Shown piece after piece: positions 4,162 through 32,531 of a DNA stretch of 41,541 nt. Under the pieces are notes generated by a model, which saw only the letters and a program-made list of their open reading frames with translations, was not told the DNA's origin and searched no databases. Source of the stretch: Chloroflexota bacterium (GTDB lineage: Bacteria > Chloroflexota > Anaerolineae > J102); assembly GCA_013152585.1 (NCBI GenBank), contig JAADGC010000198.1, positions 1 through 41,541 of the forward strand, given 5' to 3'. The position numbers were made by a program, and so were the translations under genes. Within the stretch, counting starts at the first letter, position 1. Each line of letters starts with the position of its first letter.

Positions 4162-4277
4162 CCATGAATGACACGAATTTTCACGAAAAAAGGAAAAACA
4201 CCTTCAAAATCTGGGAAAATCCGTGAATTCTGTGGCTAAAAATGCTTTGCTAAGCTGCATGTGTCATTTTCGCCAGG
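4162..4277 (+). repeat. dispersed repeat, family 2, copy 1
   Basis: A segment of the CACGAATTTTCACGAA / AATCCGTGAA type ends in CATTTTCGCCAG. It matches the reverse complement of 21651-21757. The last 58 bases are nearly identical (about three or four differences) and the rest is looser. It lies in the 288-bp gap upstream of the PiT gene, where no other gene is seen. Confidence 0.6.
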
Positions 4278-4306
4278 CTCCAGAATCTTAATTGAAGGAG
4301 TGCATT

Positions 4307-4399
4307 ATGCCAAGAATAGCAGGGCGGGTCAAGTTTGCCCGTAATCAAGGGGGTGCGTCAGGATTTTGGATAAGCTTTGGCTTTGGCCCCTCCGCATAG
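4307..4399 (+). CDS. possible 30-residue peptide
   Basis: A very short frame, ATG to TAG, has a consensus AAGGAG ribosome site (4295-4300) six bases before the ATG. The peptide is basic at its N-terminus and ends in a Gly/Phe/Ser-rich stretch (WISFGFGPSA). It lies just after repeat family 2 and runs divergently from the PiT gene. I recognise no family. It could be a true small protein, the broken start of a lost gene, or chance. The ribosome site is the only positive evidence. Confidence 0.25.
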   Translation: MPRIAGRVKFARNQGGASGFWISFGFGPSA

Positions 4400-4600
4400 A
4401 ATTCGGGACTAGCGAGGTTGCGCCTGAGACCGACAAGCGTGTGGACGCGGACGAGCGCCGAAAGCGCGGATAAATCAGGAAACTGGGAAACGGTGTGTTG
4501 ATCGGCGTCAGGCTGAACCGGCCTGGTCACCTTGTCTACCGATTACCCAGCAGTTCCAAATTTGGCGCCAACATAGTGGACGTCCATCAACGGCTCTTCG
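4400..4600. other. intergenic DNA, nothing recognised
   Basis: Open frames exist on both strands, but their translations are low-complexity and match no family I know. The segment links the possible 30-residue peptide to the first large repeat copy. From about 4581 it shares CGTCCATCAA with the flank of the third repeat copy (39070-39079). Confidence 0.4.
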
Positions 4601-4800
4601 TTTTGCTCTCGCTGACTGAAGTCAGGCTCTTCAGGCCTGCGGCCAGGAGTCGGCCTTCGCCGACTCTCCAGGTGGCGAAGATGGGACGGCGATGGCCGAT
4701 TCCCGGCGCAAAGCGTCCAAAGAGCCCGAGCCTGCCCTCGAGTGCTGTGAAGGGTACCCTCGGCCAGCGTCAGCCCCAAAAAGGAATGTTATTCCTGGAC
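4601..4800 (+). repeat. 200-bp hairpin repeat, family 1, copy A
   Basis: First of three copies (others at 22081-22280, inverted, and 39082-39273). It begins TTTTGCTCTCGCTGACTGA and ends GTTATTCC. It holds several dyads: CTGACT-GA-AGTCAG at 4612-4625; GAGTCGGC-CTTC-GCCGACTC at 4647-4666 (8-bp stem); and the palindrome GGGTACCC. The copies share most bases. Frames through it are shadows, because the same peptide appears wherever the repeat is. Copy A lies between the PiT gene and the 3' end of the molybdopterin operon. Confidence 0.85.
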
Positions 4801-4906
4801 TCTTACATCGTTGGTTCGCCATGACGAGTGAGCAATTCCCCGCCCGCTCGCCAAGACGCACCTCCGAAAAGAGGACGCACGCCCCCATGCTTGCGCGCGC
4901 CAGCCA

Positions 4907-5596
4907 TCACAACGCTGCCGGGCTGCCATCCCCCCGCGGCCCTTCCACCCAAAAGCTGCCATCGGGTCCTACCTCTTTTTTCCATACCGGTACGATTCTT
5001 TTCAGCCGGTCAATGGCATAGCTGCATGCATCGAACATGCCCTGCCGATGCGTCGCGGCCACGGCAATCATGACGCTGGACTCGCCAACTTCCATGCGCC
5101 CGATACGATGGACGATGGCGACATCCAGGATTTGCGGCCATTTTTCTTGCACTTCGGCCCCGATCTGGGCCAGCATGGCCGTGGCCATCTCATCGTAGGC
5201 TTCGTATTCCAGGTGGTCGGTTTCCAGATCGCCGGTGGTGCCGCGCACAATGCCGGAAAAAATCACAATCGCCCCGCGATCGGGGGCGGTGAGCAAGGCC
5301 GCCAGGGTGTCGGCTGACAGGGGGTCTGGTGTGACCCAAAAACGGCGTCGCGGCTGGCCGCCAGCCACGGGCGGGAAGATGGCGACCTCATCTCCTTCGT
5401 GCAGCACGGTGTCCCAGGTAGCATAGCGTTTGTTGATGGCCACATGCAGCGCACCTTCATCGTTGAAAGCCGGCGTGTGCTGGCGCAGTTCTTTCACCAG
5501 CTCCTGCACTGTGGCGTCTTCTGCCAGCTCGAGTTCGAGGATATTTGTTTGAAAAACGTCGCGTAGGGCGGCGAATAATCTAATCTCGATTTTCAT
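4907..5596 (-). CDS. MoaD-MoaE fusion, molybdopterin synthase
   Basis: A 229-residue protein carrying both subunits of molybdopterin synthase, which adds the dithiolene sulfurs to precursor Z. Residues 1-80 are the ubiquitin-like MoaD part, ending in PPVAGG (GG at 79-80). Residues from about 84 are MoaE, with HRIGRMEVGE (163-172), the THRQ/AC/AIDRLK segment, and the active-site WKKE (206-209). The MoaD Gly-Gly that normally carries the thiocarboxylate at a free C-terminus is followed here by QPRRR, so cleavage after Gly80, as reported for mycobacterial MoaX, would be needed or the mechanism differs. The start at 5596 is chosen over the upstream ATG because GGAG precedes it. It is the last gene of the Mo/W operon. 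Confidence 0.9.
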   Translation of the reverse strand: MKIEIRLFAALRDVFQTNILELELAEDATVQELVKELRQHTPAFNDEGALHVAINKRYATWDTVLHEGDEVAIFPPVAGGQPRRRFWVTPDPLSADTLAALLTAPDRGAIVIFSGIVRGTTGDLETDHLEYEAYDEMATAMLAQIGAEVQEKWPQILDVAIVHRIGRMEVGESSVMIAVAATHRQGMFDACSYAIDRLKRIVPVWKKEVGPDGSFWVEGPRGDGSPAAL

Positions 5597-28812: not shown

Positions 28813-28913
28813 TGGGGGGGACTGAGGGGGGGGACTAAAGCCATACTCTCCTGCCAAAATCCTGGGATGCCCCCATGCACATCCTACAGATATGCCTCTT
28901 TCGGCGTCAATGG

Positions 28914-28919
28914 TATAAT
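28914..28919 (+). promoter_or_regulatory. extended -10 box before the translin-like gene
   Basis: TGGTATAAT forms an extended -10 box ending at 28919. The start would lie near 28926. This places the ATG at 28875 upstream of the transcript and supports the GTG at 28965 as the real start. No good -35 is seen. Confidence 0.5.
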
Positions 28920-28964
28920 GTGCTATGCTTTTTATCTTATCCCCCACAGCAAGCGAGACAGCCC

Positions 28965-29594
28965 GTGCATAACCTGACCAGCATCATCGAAACCATCCGT
29001 ACTGATTTTGACAACCGTAACGCTGCCCGCGATCAGGCTTTGAAACATTCCCGCGAACTGATTCGTTTTTGCTCGTTAAGTATCCGTGCCAGCCACCGGC
29101 ATGAATTCGACGAGGCCCAACGCCTGCTCGAAACCGTGCGGCGCCGGGCGCAGGAACTCAGCAACGAACTTGAGGCCTATCCCGAACTGTATTACGCCGG
29201 TTATACGCAAGACGCCCTCAAAGAAGTAACTGAGGCGCATCTGACATTTGCCCTCATTCACCATCAGCCACTGCCCACCCCCAGTGATTTGGGCGTTCCT
29301 CATCCCGCCTATTTGGGAGGCCTGGCAGAAGCAGCCGGCGAATTGCGGCGGTTCATCCTCGATCTGCTGCGCCGCGACCGCCTGGATGAAGCCGAGCGCT
29401 TGTTTACCACCATGGACGACATCTATAGCGTGTTGGTCACCATCGATTTCCCCGACGCCATTACCCGCGGGTTGCGCCGCCAAACCGACATGGTGCGCGG
29501 GGTCACCGAACGCACCCGCGGCGATCTCACGTTGACCATGCGCCAGCACCGGCTGGAGCAAGCCCTGCGCGACTTCGAACAAAACATATCGTAG
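28965..29594 (+). CDS. translin-like protein
   Basis: A 209-residue, all-helical protein resembling the translin family of RNA/DNA-binding proteins: an N-terminal RDQALKHSRELIRFCSLSIRA helix, YPELYYAGYTQDALKE, and a C-terminal region with PDAITRGLRRQTDMVRGVTERTRGDL typical of translins. Eukaryotic translin forms the C3PO ribonuclease with TRAX; archaeal and bacterial members are little studied. The GTG at 28965 is chosen because the only promoter-like box lies at 28914 and family similarity begins there. It may share a transcript with the next three genes; 28 bp separate it from the Cas4-like half. Confidence 0.72.
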   Translation: MHNLTSIIETIRTDFDNRNAARDQALKHSRELIRFCSLSIRASHRHEFDEAQRLLETVRRRAQELSNELEAYPELYYAGYTQDALKEVTEAHLTFALIHHQPLPTPSDLGVPHPAYLGGLAEAAGELRRFILDLLRRDRLDEAERLFTTMDDIYSVLVTIDFPDAITRGLRRQTDMVRGVTERTRGDLTLTMRQHRLEQALRDFEQNIS

Positions 29595-29622: not shown

Positions 29623-29892
29623 ATGTCCCCCAGCGACCTCCCTTCCCCTTCCGTCATCCGCGCCTCCGAGATCGGGCAGTGGATTTACTGCCAGCGGGCG
29701 TGGTGGCTGAGCCGGCAGGGCTACGCCAATCAAAATCAGAGCCAACTCGAGGAAGGCATTGTTGCACATGAGCAACATGCCCGAGATGTCGCAAAGGCCC
29801 ACGTCACGCGGGAGATTGCCCGCTATCTGCTGGTACTGAGCTTGCTCCTCCTCATCGCCGTATTCCTGGCTTCGCGGCTTTCTTTGCTTTAA
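29623..29892 (+). CDS. N-terminal half of a Cas4-like nuclease, membrane-anchored
   Basis: An 89-residue protein. Residues 11-33 (VIRASEIGQWIYCQRAWWL) match the N-terminal segment of Cas4/RecB-type nucleases that supplies the first iron-sulfur cysteine (C23). EEGIVAHEQH (43-52) matches the motif I region with its histidine (H49). The remaining catalytic motifs are absent; instead a membrane helix (about 66-87) ends the protein. Those missing motifs occur in the gene at 30693, two genes downstream, beyond an L,D-transpeptidase gene. It is likely one half of a split enzyme. No ribosome site is clear at the ATG. Confidence 0.65.
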   Translation: MSPSDLPSPSVIRASEIGQWIYCQRAWWLSRQGYANQNQSQLEEGIVAHEQHARDVAKAHVTREIARYLLVLSLLLLIAVFLASRLSLL

Positions 29893-29919
29893 GCCTCCTT
29901 ATGCACAACTGTCCCCTTT

Positions 29920-30693
29920 ATGCCTGATCACATATCTTTCCCCTCACATCTTTCTCCATTGGTGCTGGTGTTGGGAGTAGCCACGCTGGCGCTGGGCATG
30001 TGGATCAGCAGCCTGTGGATGACGCCGGTTGTCAAAGGCAGCGATCTTGCCACCGCCACCCCCACCAAAACGCCGCCGTCGGTTGACGTTGTCCAAGGCA
30101 CATCAGCAGCATTTAACAACGCCGCCGCCCTGCTGCCCACCCTTACGCCCGTGCCCACGACGGCCCTGCCCGCGCCTTCACCCACCCCTGTGCCCGTCAG
30201 CACCCCGACAGCATTCATCACGCCCCAGCCCTGGGTGGTCGAGCTAGCACAAAAGCGGGGAATTAACCCCATGGGCCGGTACATTATTATCGATCAGGAT
30301 AACCAACAGATGCACATTGTCGAAAAGGGTCATCTCGTACGCCTGCTCGACATCACCACCGGCGATCCGGCGCTGGGCTGGGATACACCGGCATGGTTCG
30401 GTGTGATCGGCAAATACTGGGGTACCTTTCAGGGCCTGGGCGGCGTCAAGGCAGATGAAGGCTGGTGGCTGTTCAAACGCGGTGGCAATTTTTTAATCCA
30501 CGGCCTGCCTTATGTCCTTGATGACCAGGGTCAGAAAGTGTATAAAGGGGCCGATGAACTCGGCTTTGCTCCGGCCTCGCGAGGATGTATTCGCCTGGCG
30601 CCAGACAATGCCCGCTGGTTCACAGCCTGGAAACCACAGGGCGTGCCCATCATCATCCTCCCCTACACCGATCCATCTCAGGTGCCGGGCTGA
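29920..30693 (+). CDS. L,D-transpeptidase (YkuD domain)
   Basis: A 257-residue cell-wall enzyme. An N-terminal membrane helix (about 12-33) is followed by a Pro/Thr/Ser-rich linker and a C-terminal YkuD domain. Catalytic motifs HGLPY and ASRGCIRL, with the His and Cys, are intact. It should form 3-3 cross-links in peptidoglycan or attach proteins to it, outside the membrane. It sits between two halves of a Cas4-like nuclease, and its stop overlaps the start of the second half by one base (TGATG). Confidence 0.9.
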   Translation: MPDHISFPSHLSPLVLVLGVATLALGMWISSLWMTPVVKGSDLATATPTKTPPSVDVVQGTSAAFNNAAALLPTLTPVPTTALPAPSPTPVPVSTPTAFITPQPWVVELAQKRGINPMGRYIIIDQDNQQMHIVEKGHLVRLLDITTGDPALGWDTPAWFGVIGKYWGTFQGLGGVKADEGWWLFKRGGNFLIHGLPYVLDDQGQKVYKGADELGFAPASRGCIRLAPDNARWFTAWKPQGVPIIILPYTDPSQVPG

Positions 30694-31223
30694 TGACAGC
30701 GCTGCTCGTTGCTGCGGCCGCGATCATGCTGGCAGCCGGTCTCTGGCTGACTCTGCGTTCGCGACGCAGTTGGCAACAAACAGGCCTGCCGCAGGGCGAG
30801 GTCATCTATGTGGATGCCGGCGACTGGCACCGCAGTAATCGCTCTCTATTCTCCGTCCGTTACCAGTTGGCCGGTAAGCCCGATTATCTGGTAGAAATGG
30901 AGGGCAAAGTAATTCCGGTCGAAGTCAAGCACAGCCAGATCAAGTCCGCTGATCCTTATACTTCGCACAAATTGCAACTGGCAGCTTACTGCCTTTTGGT
31001 TGAAGATGTGCTGGGGTCACGACCTCCTTACGGCGTCCTCAAATACGCGGCCACTACGTTCAAAATCCCCTATACCGACGACCTGCGCCAGGAACTTCTG
31101 CACCATCTGTCCGAGATTCATCTGGCGCATAAGCGCAGCGAACTTTCACCTCAACACACCGATGCCGCCCGTTGCCGGCACTGCGGGTTCCGCCATGCCT
31201 GCGGTTCCCAGGCGCTGGCCTGA
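30693..31223 (+). CDS. C-terminal half of a Cas4-like nuclease, membrane-anchored
   Basis: A 176-residue protein. An N-terminal membrane helix (about 3-20) leads into the core of a PD-(D/E)xK nuclease: KPDYL (D64), VIPVEVK (E77, K79) and LQLAAYCLL (Q95). It ends with CRHCGFRHACG, giving C161, C164 and C170, the three C-terminal cysteines of the Cas4 iron-sulfur cluster. The fourth cysteine and motif I are absent here but present in the protein encoded at 29623. The start is fixed by the TGATG overlap with the transpeptidase gene. No other cas gene or CRISPR array is present. Confidence 0.75.
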   Translation: MTALLVAAAAIMLAAGLWLTLRSRRSWQQTGLPQGEVIYVDAGDWHRSNRSLFSVRYQLAGKPDYLVEMEGKVIPVEVKHSQIKSADPYTSHKLQLAAYCLLVEDVLGSRPPYGVLKYAATTFKIPYTDDLRQELLHHLSEIHLAHKRSELSPQHTDAARCRHCGFRHACGSQALA

Positions 31224-31250: not shown

Positions 31251-32531
31251 ATGCGTTTTCAAACCCTCAAAGGCTTCAACGATATCCTGCCCGACGACTT
31301 CCGGTATTGGCGCTTTGTGCTCAGCAAAGCCACCGAACTCACCGACCGCTTTGGATTCATGCAGATCGACCCGCCCATTCTGGAAGAAACCCGCTTATTC
31401 CTGCGGGGTTTGCAAGAAGGCTCTGCTGTCGTCCTCGACAAAGAACTGTACAGCTTCGATGATCATGATGGCACCAACATCAGCTTGCGACCCGAATTTA
31501 CCGCCGGGGTCATGCGGGCCTATGTCGAAAACGGACTCCACACCTACCCCAAACCGGTGCGTCTTTTCTCCATCGGGCCCCTATTCCGCCACGAAAAACC
31601 CCAGGCCGGACGTTTTCGCCAACACGTACAGTTGAATGCCGAGCTCTTGGGCGAAGAAGATGCGGCGGCCGATCTCGAGATTATGCAACTGGCCTACAGC
31701 CTTTATCACGAACTGGGTTTTCAGGGCCTCACCTTCCAGCTCAACTCCATCGGCTGCTCCCAGTGCCGCCCCCCCTACATCCAAGCCCTGGTCGACTATT
31801 TCCAGGTGCACTACAGCGCCCTCCCCGCGGTCGATCAGCGCCGTTTGCGGGTCAACCCCCTGCGCGTGCTCGACACCAAAGAAAAAGCCACCCGGGCATT
31901 GCTGGCCGACGCTCCCCGCAGCATCGACTATCTGTGCGCCGATTGCGCCCAGCATTTCCAGACCCTGACCGGCTATCTGGGCGATCTGGATTTTGCCTAC
32001 GAGGTCAATCCCCGACTGGTGCGGGGCTTCGACTATTATGTGCGCACCGTTTTCGAGGTGTGGGGCAGCGAGCTGGGGGCGCAGAACGCCCTGTGCGGCG
32101 GCGGACGCTATGATGGTCTCGTCGAATCCGTAGGCGGACCGCCCACACCCGGCGTCGGCGTCGGCATCGGCATCGAACGCATTGTGCTCAGCCTGCGGGC
32201 GCAGGGCATCGAGCCCCCGGCGCTCGCCCATCCCCAGTTTATGACCCTGCATCGCGGCGCCGCCGCCAAAAAAAAGGCGGTGCAGATCACCCACCAACTG
32301 CGCCAGGCCGGTATGCCTGCCACCATGCCCTTTGGCTCCCGCAGCCTCAAATCGCAACTCAAAGCCGCCAACCGCAGCCACGTGCATTACGCTCTGATTC
32401 TGGGCGAAGACGAACTGGCCCAGGGCATTGTCACCGTCCGCGATATGACCACCGGCGAGCAAAGCGAAGTGACACTGGCCGACATTGTATCGTGGGCTCA
32501 GGCCCATTGGCCCCCGCCTACCGACGCCTAA
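31251..32531 (+). CDS. hisS: histidyl-tRNA synthetase
   Basis: A 426-residue class II aminoacyl-tRNA synthetase. GFNDILPDD opens the protein; RPEFTAGVMRAY is motif 2-like; RGFDYYVRTVFEVW is the histidine-binding motif; and GIGIERIVLSL is motif 3. A C-terminal anticodon-binding domain follows. It starts 27 bp after the Cas4-like half and is probably in the same operon. Confidence 0.96.
   Translation: MRFQTLKGFNDILPDDFRYWRFVLSKATELTDRFGFMQIDPPILEETRLFLRGLQEGSAVVLDKELYSFDDHDGTNISLRPEFTAGVMRAYVENGLHTYPKPVRLFSIGPLFRHEKPQAGRFRQHVQLNAELLGEEDAAADLEIMQLAYSLYHELGFQGLTFQLNSIGCSQCRPPYIQALVDYFQVHYSALPAVDQRRLRVNPLRVLDTKEKATRALLADAPRSIDYLCADCAQHFQTLTGYLGDLDFAYEVNPRLVRGFDYYVRTVFEVWGSELGAQNALCGGGRYDGLVESVGGPPTPGVGVGIGIERIVLSLRAQGIEPPALAHPQFMTLHRGAAAKKKAVQITHQLRQAGMPATMPFGSRSLKSQLKAANRSHVHYALILGEDELAQGIVTVRDMTTGEQSEVTLADIVSWAQAHWPPPTDA

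Follow-up and report, generated by a model that had tools for sequence, protein, structure and literature searches.

The window (the whole stretch of DNA analysed, 41,541 nucleotides, contig C250) belongs to a 3.8 Mb draft genome of a Chloroflexota bacterium that is 96% complete. Five co-directional genes form the locus: a translin-like gene, the N-terminal half of a Cas4-like protein (N half), an L,D-transpeptidase (LDT) gene, the C-terminal half (C half) and a hisS-like gene. Their coordinates and those of their relevant parts are as follows.

28875..29594, + strand: translin-like protein (NF011160/PRK14562; NCBIfam E 6.7e-83, 277.3 bits against a cut-off of 291; PF01997 E 4e-4)
29623..29892, + strand: N half, 89 residues, with C23, H49 and a C-terminal membrane helix (PF01930 positions 3-50, TIGR00372 positions 2-49; positional homologues family-wide)
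29689..29691, + strand: codon of C23, predicted first [4Fe-4S] ligand (aligned with the first cysteine of 8d3l)
29767..29769, + strand: codon of H49, the motif I histidine
29824..29874, + strand: N-half membrane helix, residues 68-84, mean hydropathy 2.75 (from hydropathy and the positive-inside rule; preceding side predicted cytoplasmic)
29920..30693, + strand: LDT (YkuD) gene between the halves, a passenger outside the nuclease (PF03734 E 2.5e-12)
30693..31223, + strand: C half, 176 residues, with an N-terminal membrane helix, D64/E77/K79/Q95 and C161/C164/C170 (PF01930 positions 47-158, TIGR00372)
30699..30749, + strand: C-half membrane helix, residues 3-19, mean hydropathy 2.4 (following side predicted cytoplasmic)
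31251..32531, + strand: hisS-like gene, downstream context (conserved neighbour of the family; named from the translation as read)

The two halves and the Cas4 fold

In the N half, C23 lies within the motif IYCQRAWWL. The C half starts with the ATG at 30693, which shares one base with the TGA of the LDT gene (TGATG), and ends with the stop at 31223; it carries PDYL (63-66), VEVK (76-79) and QLAAYCLL, followed by the three cysteines. The split Cas4-like motifs that the earlier note had read in open reading frames of 89 and 176 residues were thus confirmed in both. No further PF01930 match was found in the window's genome beyond the pair. The translin-like gene, which in Anaerolineae regularly precedes the N half, just misses an NCBI model titled 'haloacid dehalogenase superfamily protein' (277.3 versus 291 bits).

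Both proteins match the Cas4 profile PF01930 (160 positions, cut-off 22.7 bits). The C half covers positions 47-158 above the cut-off (E 4.3e-11, 43.6 bits), and the N half covers positions 3-50 below it (E 9e-4, 19.8 bits), in the segment that the C half misses. The TIGR00372 and PADLOC Cas4 models are concordant with this. The two halves consequently fall in adjoining segments of the same nuclease family and not, as the earlier note had allowed for, in two different non-nuclease families. The C half alone scores 69.2 bits against the TIGR00372/NCBIfam cas4 model, whose cut-off is 65, and so passes this equivalog cut-off while lacking the first cysteine and motif I. Automatic annotation may for this reason label half a protein as Cas4.

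The fold was modelled on an orthologous pair, L221, whose halves are naturally in frame, by reading the intervening stop as a residue and using 36 similar rows. AlphaFold2 predicted this single chain with a mean pLDDT of 93.2 and a pTM of 0.88; the model is a Cas4 domain whose centre holds a helical hairpin, which corresponds to the membrane hairpin. In Foldseek the best PDB match was the type I-C Cas4 8d3l_J (E 1.3e-7, TM 0.70 relative to the whole-length target), followed by a Cas4/Cas1 fusion, Dna2, ACE1 and MGME1. The profile alignment with 8d3l contains a single gap, in which query residues 65-159 stand against residues 63-102 of the chain, at the site of the hairpin. The artificial orthologous chain is accordingly predicted to fold as a complete Cas4, as expected if one PD-(D/E)xK fold is made from both halves. 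The model serves as a proxy: it indicates that the halves can form one fold and does not imply assembly from separate chains.

The residues that such a fold would need are strongly conserved. Among N-half homologues the first cysteine is present in 160/160 and the motif I histidine in 159/160. In the C half, the catalytic aspartate, glutamate and lysine are kept in 168/174, 170/174 and 172/174 sequences, respectively, the glutamine in 174/175 and the cluster cysteines in 174/175, 174/175 and 173/175. The set of four cysteines, one N-terminal and three C-terminal, is complete only when both proteins are taken jointly, and the active-site set of His, Asp, Glu-x-Lys and Gln is likewise spread across the pair. 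Both membrane helices occur in 160/160 pairs, with median hydropathies of 2.7 (N half) and 2.8 (C half). Flanking each helix, the median net charge amounts to +3 towards the nuclease part and to 0 on the opposite side, from which both soluble parts are predicted to be cytoplasmic. Distances among N halves correlate with those among C halves (r 0.62, 71 pairs), as expected for co-inheritance. Profiles, conserved motifs and the model support the view that the two proteins complement each other within a single Cas4-type fold.

Distribution and joint retention

Among 20 genomes of the same order, the C half was found at high score in 16 and a good N half in 15. Across 298 Anaerolineae genomes a strong C half was present in 201 and a strong N half in 195; 193 genomes contained both halves, 95 neither and only 10, all drafts, were discordant (8 with the C half only, 2 with the N half only). 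Three of the eight C-half-only genomes, from family f46, hold a weak N match, and in at least two discordant genomes the C half lies at a contig end. The co-occurrence, from counts tallied by eye in the match listings, gives a Fisher p of 2e-65, a value uncorrected for relatedness and inflated by common descent. All four complete genomes tested that have no C half also have no N half (G054, G085, G289, G248). G012 has an N half that is both interrupted and truncated, and a search there for the C half found none, which suggests joint decay of the two.

The association does not depend on adjacency. N halves that do not adjoin the C half turned up at another place in the genome, single-copy and intact. 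The halves are separated on one contig by 887 kb in G553, 434 kb in G235 and 387 kb in G242, and in G029 by about 0.5 Mb if the contig is circular or 2.8 Mb otherwise. They lie on two long contigs in G152 and on different contigs in G022, G025, G088, G115 and G202.

Other classes of Chloroflexota also carry the split pair. A scan of the genomes of 84,980 species returned 511 relatives; the best 80, nearly all from Chloroflexota and some of them from genomes already counted above, comprise 79 split loci, no fused one and one cut by a contig end. Among their hosts are Roseiflexus, Chloroflexus islandicus and, with a complete genome, Herpetosiphon aurantiacus DSM 785. Two genes instead of a single polypeptide are found in all but three of 175 loci. 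A predicted split Cas4-type nuclease is thereby kept through most of the phylum Chloroflexota, and the finding is broader than the earlier note proposed, a phylum-level feature and not a local oddity. Chance or assembly error was ruled out by the phylum-wide conservation, by complete isolate genomes (CP000875.1) and by single-contig genomes. A viral origin was also considered and rejected: an IMG/VR scan with the paired alignment gave no relative, and phage records gave only weak RecB/Cas4-like matches.

The split pair was also observed on planctomycete plasmids, namely PALBO2 of Paludisphaera borealis and pSINAC03 of Singulisphaera, which is conjugative. On both, the two genes share an ATGA overlap. 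The small gene is annotated there as hypothetical and the large one as a PD-(D/E)XK nuclease.

L273 2151-2932 (NZ_CP019084.1): planctomycete plasmid pair, ATGA overlap, near DNA methylase genes
L295 2124-2896 (NC_019895.1): planctomycete plasmid pair, ATGA overlap, near DNA methylase genes

On a third planctomycete plasmid (L296), the C half is shortened and adjoins an IS701 transposase.

Intervening genes, fused forms and alternative readings

An LDT gene fills the gap between the halves in 20/71 mapped loci, and the tree requires 12 or more changes in its presence there. In other loci the halves overlap or lie a few bases apart. Given these counts and alternative gap types, the LDT is best described as a passenger. 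In G008 (L047, about 4250-5080, minus strand) the halves are separated by a toxin-antitoxin pair like DUF433 and DUF5615, named from translation. The five-gene arrangement of the window's locus (translin-like, N half, LDT, C half, hisS) is recurrent in the family. The upstream neighbour differs by class: it is an M50 peptidase in Roseiflexus and Chloroflexus and an HD-domain hydrolase in the large-genome lineage. In two loci of these two genera (L193 1834-3012, L207 2835-4001), the M50 peptidase directly upstream of the N half is site-2-protease-like and replaces the translin-like gene.

Fused forms with two central membrane helices were found in three loci of family f76, large-genome Chloroflexota that are probably Ktedonobacteria.

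L169 2321-3310: fused Cas4-like protein, two central membrane helices, family f76
L171 4515-5651: fused Cas4-like protein, two central membrane helices, family f76
L173 4353-5411: fused Cas4-like protein, two central membrane helices, family f76

In all three the catalytic aspartate is replaced by threonine or alanine (GKPTY, GKPAY, ARPAY), and in two of them the glutamate is replaced by aspartate. They form one clade nested among split forms, and every lineage branching below that clade is split. Of 511 relatives the best 80, almost all from Chloroflexota, included no fused form from another phylum. Within the sampled group, the split is, judging by the tree, the older state and the fused form the derived one. 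The single chains with two helices for which the earlier note suggested a survey do therefore exist, nested within split forms and not as their ancestor.

This topology bears on the proposal of the earlier note that one ancestral gene was split when the LDT gene inserted. That the gene was whole until such an insertion or some recent damage, leaving the halves as remnants, is an extremely unlikely account even though the LDT does sit between them in the window and in 20/71 mapped loci, since the loci without it are equally split, its presence has changed repeatedly, the motifs are strongly constrained and the lineages below the fused clade are all split. The proposal is abandoned here, as is the meaning that the same note attached to co-expression with the LDT and translin-like genes. 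The recurrent gene order could place the pair in a cell-wall or RNA-processing operon with these two proteins, but the neighbours change between classes (M50 peptidase, HD-domain hydrolase, and DNA methylase on the planctomycete plasmids) and the LDT is missing from many loci, so that the context holds no general meaning and this reading is very improbable. A role in CRISPR adaptation, the pair serving Cas1-Cas2 from a distance, is suggested by the Cas4 homology and by a slightly higher frequency of Cas1 where the pair is present (128/201 genomes versus 43/97 without it; p 0.002, uncorrected for relatedness and completeness). Against it, a search of the whole genome of the window found no Cas1, no cas genes lie beside the pair, and no regular repeat array was found in positions 20000-41541 of the window; 73 of 201 Anaerolineae genomes with the pair have no Cas1, and the CRISPR-type Cas4 genes of related genomes form separate tree branches. 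Not being encoded with cas1/cas2 in a CRISPR genome, the pair resembles solo-Cas4, i.e. a Cas4-family gene outside cas loci, and we regard adaptation at a distance as highly improbable. The description of the halves by the earlier note as complementary, membrane-anchored and without a CRISPR link is upheld by the co-conserved motifs, the co-retained genes and the missing Cas1.

Two further readings concern the protein itself. Production of a single protein by stop-codon read-through or frameshifting could be imagined from the 37 of the best 80 (of 511) loci in which the halves are in the same frame within about 50 bases. Yet the intervening stops show no preference (TAG/TGA/TAA 19/15/13), the spacing varies, two or three stops intervene in some pairs, the C half begins with a start codon of its own, and many pairs overlap out of frame or are parted by an LDT gene, by the toxin-antitoxin-like pair or by hundreds of kb; such a mechanism is barely credible. 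That the pair assembles into a membrane module without catalysis, serving as a DNA-binding Fe-S protein in a structural or regulatory role, is also unlikely. The aspartate is lost in L169, L171, L173, L180 and L188, so the scaffold can persist without it, whereas Asp, Glu and Lys are each kept in at least 168 of 174 loci, the window included. The loss in the Ktedonobacteria-like clade implies that not every member can be a nuclease.

A proposed membrane nuclease and its relation to known systems

The main reading, to which we give a probability of about 0.85, is that each gene encodes one subunit of a single Cas4-type nuclease embedded in the membrane, and that only the heterodimer has a complete cluster and metal site. 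The halves very probably assemble at the membrane; from sequences and models we infer their physical assembly, the cluster and the nuclease activity. The small subunit, leaving the cytoplasm through its C-terminal helix, would contribute the motif I histidine together with the first cysteine of the cluster. The large subunit would enter the membrane with its N-terminal helix and give the PD-(D/E)xK core and the other three cysteines. Paired as a split hairpin, the helices would bring the cytoplasmic portions into contact; [4Fe-4S] cluster and metal site would then be complete in the heterodimer only, and the enzyme would stay inactive until both subunits were inserted.

Cas4, Dna2 and MGME1 cut single-stranded DNA ends as exonucleases or flap nucleases. 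The enzyme proposed here could similarly act on DNA, as an exonuclease or flap nuclease independent of CRISPR, from the cytoplasmic side of the membrane. The anchoring, the independence from CRISPR and the occurrence on conjugative plasmids beside DNA methylases suggest that it handles DNA there. As a guess, its substrate may be DNA ends associated with the membrane or DNA that is entering there, and the pair possibly handles incoming DNA, which is also a guess. It is a tentative extension of the main reading, more doubtful than probable, that Chloroflexota and some planctomycete plasmids share an obligate two-subunit membrane Fe-S nuclease, gated by co-insertion, as a CRISPR-independent barrier or processor of entering DNA.

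A catalytic site and a metal cofactor divided between two membrane-anchored proteins across a whole phylum would be rare, and the split suggests that the nuclease stays switched off as long as its two parts have not met in the membrane. Chloroflexota entries labelled 'Cas4' in databases are often half a protein, the small partner being overlooked and annotated as hypothetical, which affects solo-Cas4 surveys and assays of such proteins. The question can be put to a direct test in cultured hosts, Herpetosiphon aurantiacus among them.

No earlier report of a split or membrane-bound Cas4 was found in the open-access literature. The nuclease domains of Dna2 and MGME1 belong to the same PD-(D/E)xK superfamily by fold search. 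Both are single-chain enzymes, not two membrane-tethered parts, and Dna2 has in addition a helicase. The Argonaute-associated Cas4 family protein ACE1 (9iac, 9iab), a significant fold match, is also of Cas4 type and outside CRISPR; in contrast to the pair, it is a single chain with another partner and no membrane hairpin was noted in it. CRISPR-associated Cas4 (PF01930/TIGR00372; 8d3l, 4r5q), the best fold and profile match, shares the PD-(D/E)xK core, the motif I histidine and the order of the four cysteines. The pair differs from it in being two polypeptides with a membrane helix at each break point and in having no Cas1/Cas2 nearby or in the window's genome. According to Hudaiberdiev et al. 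(2017, PMC5704561), the solo-Cas4 of many Chloroflexi is monophyletic. A word search of the main text of that study found no occurrence of 'split' or 'transmembrane', and its Chloroflexi solo-Cas4 may be the C halves seen here. The solo-Cas4 genes and the pair have in common their location outside cas loci, while the C half alone is devoid of the first cysteine and of motif I, which are carried by its small partner.
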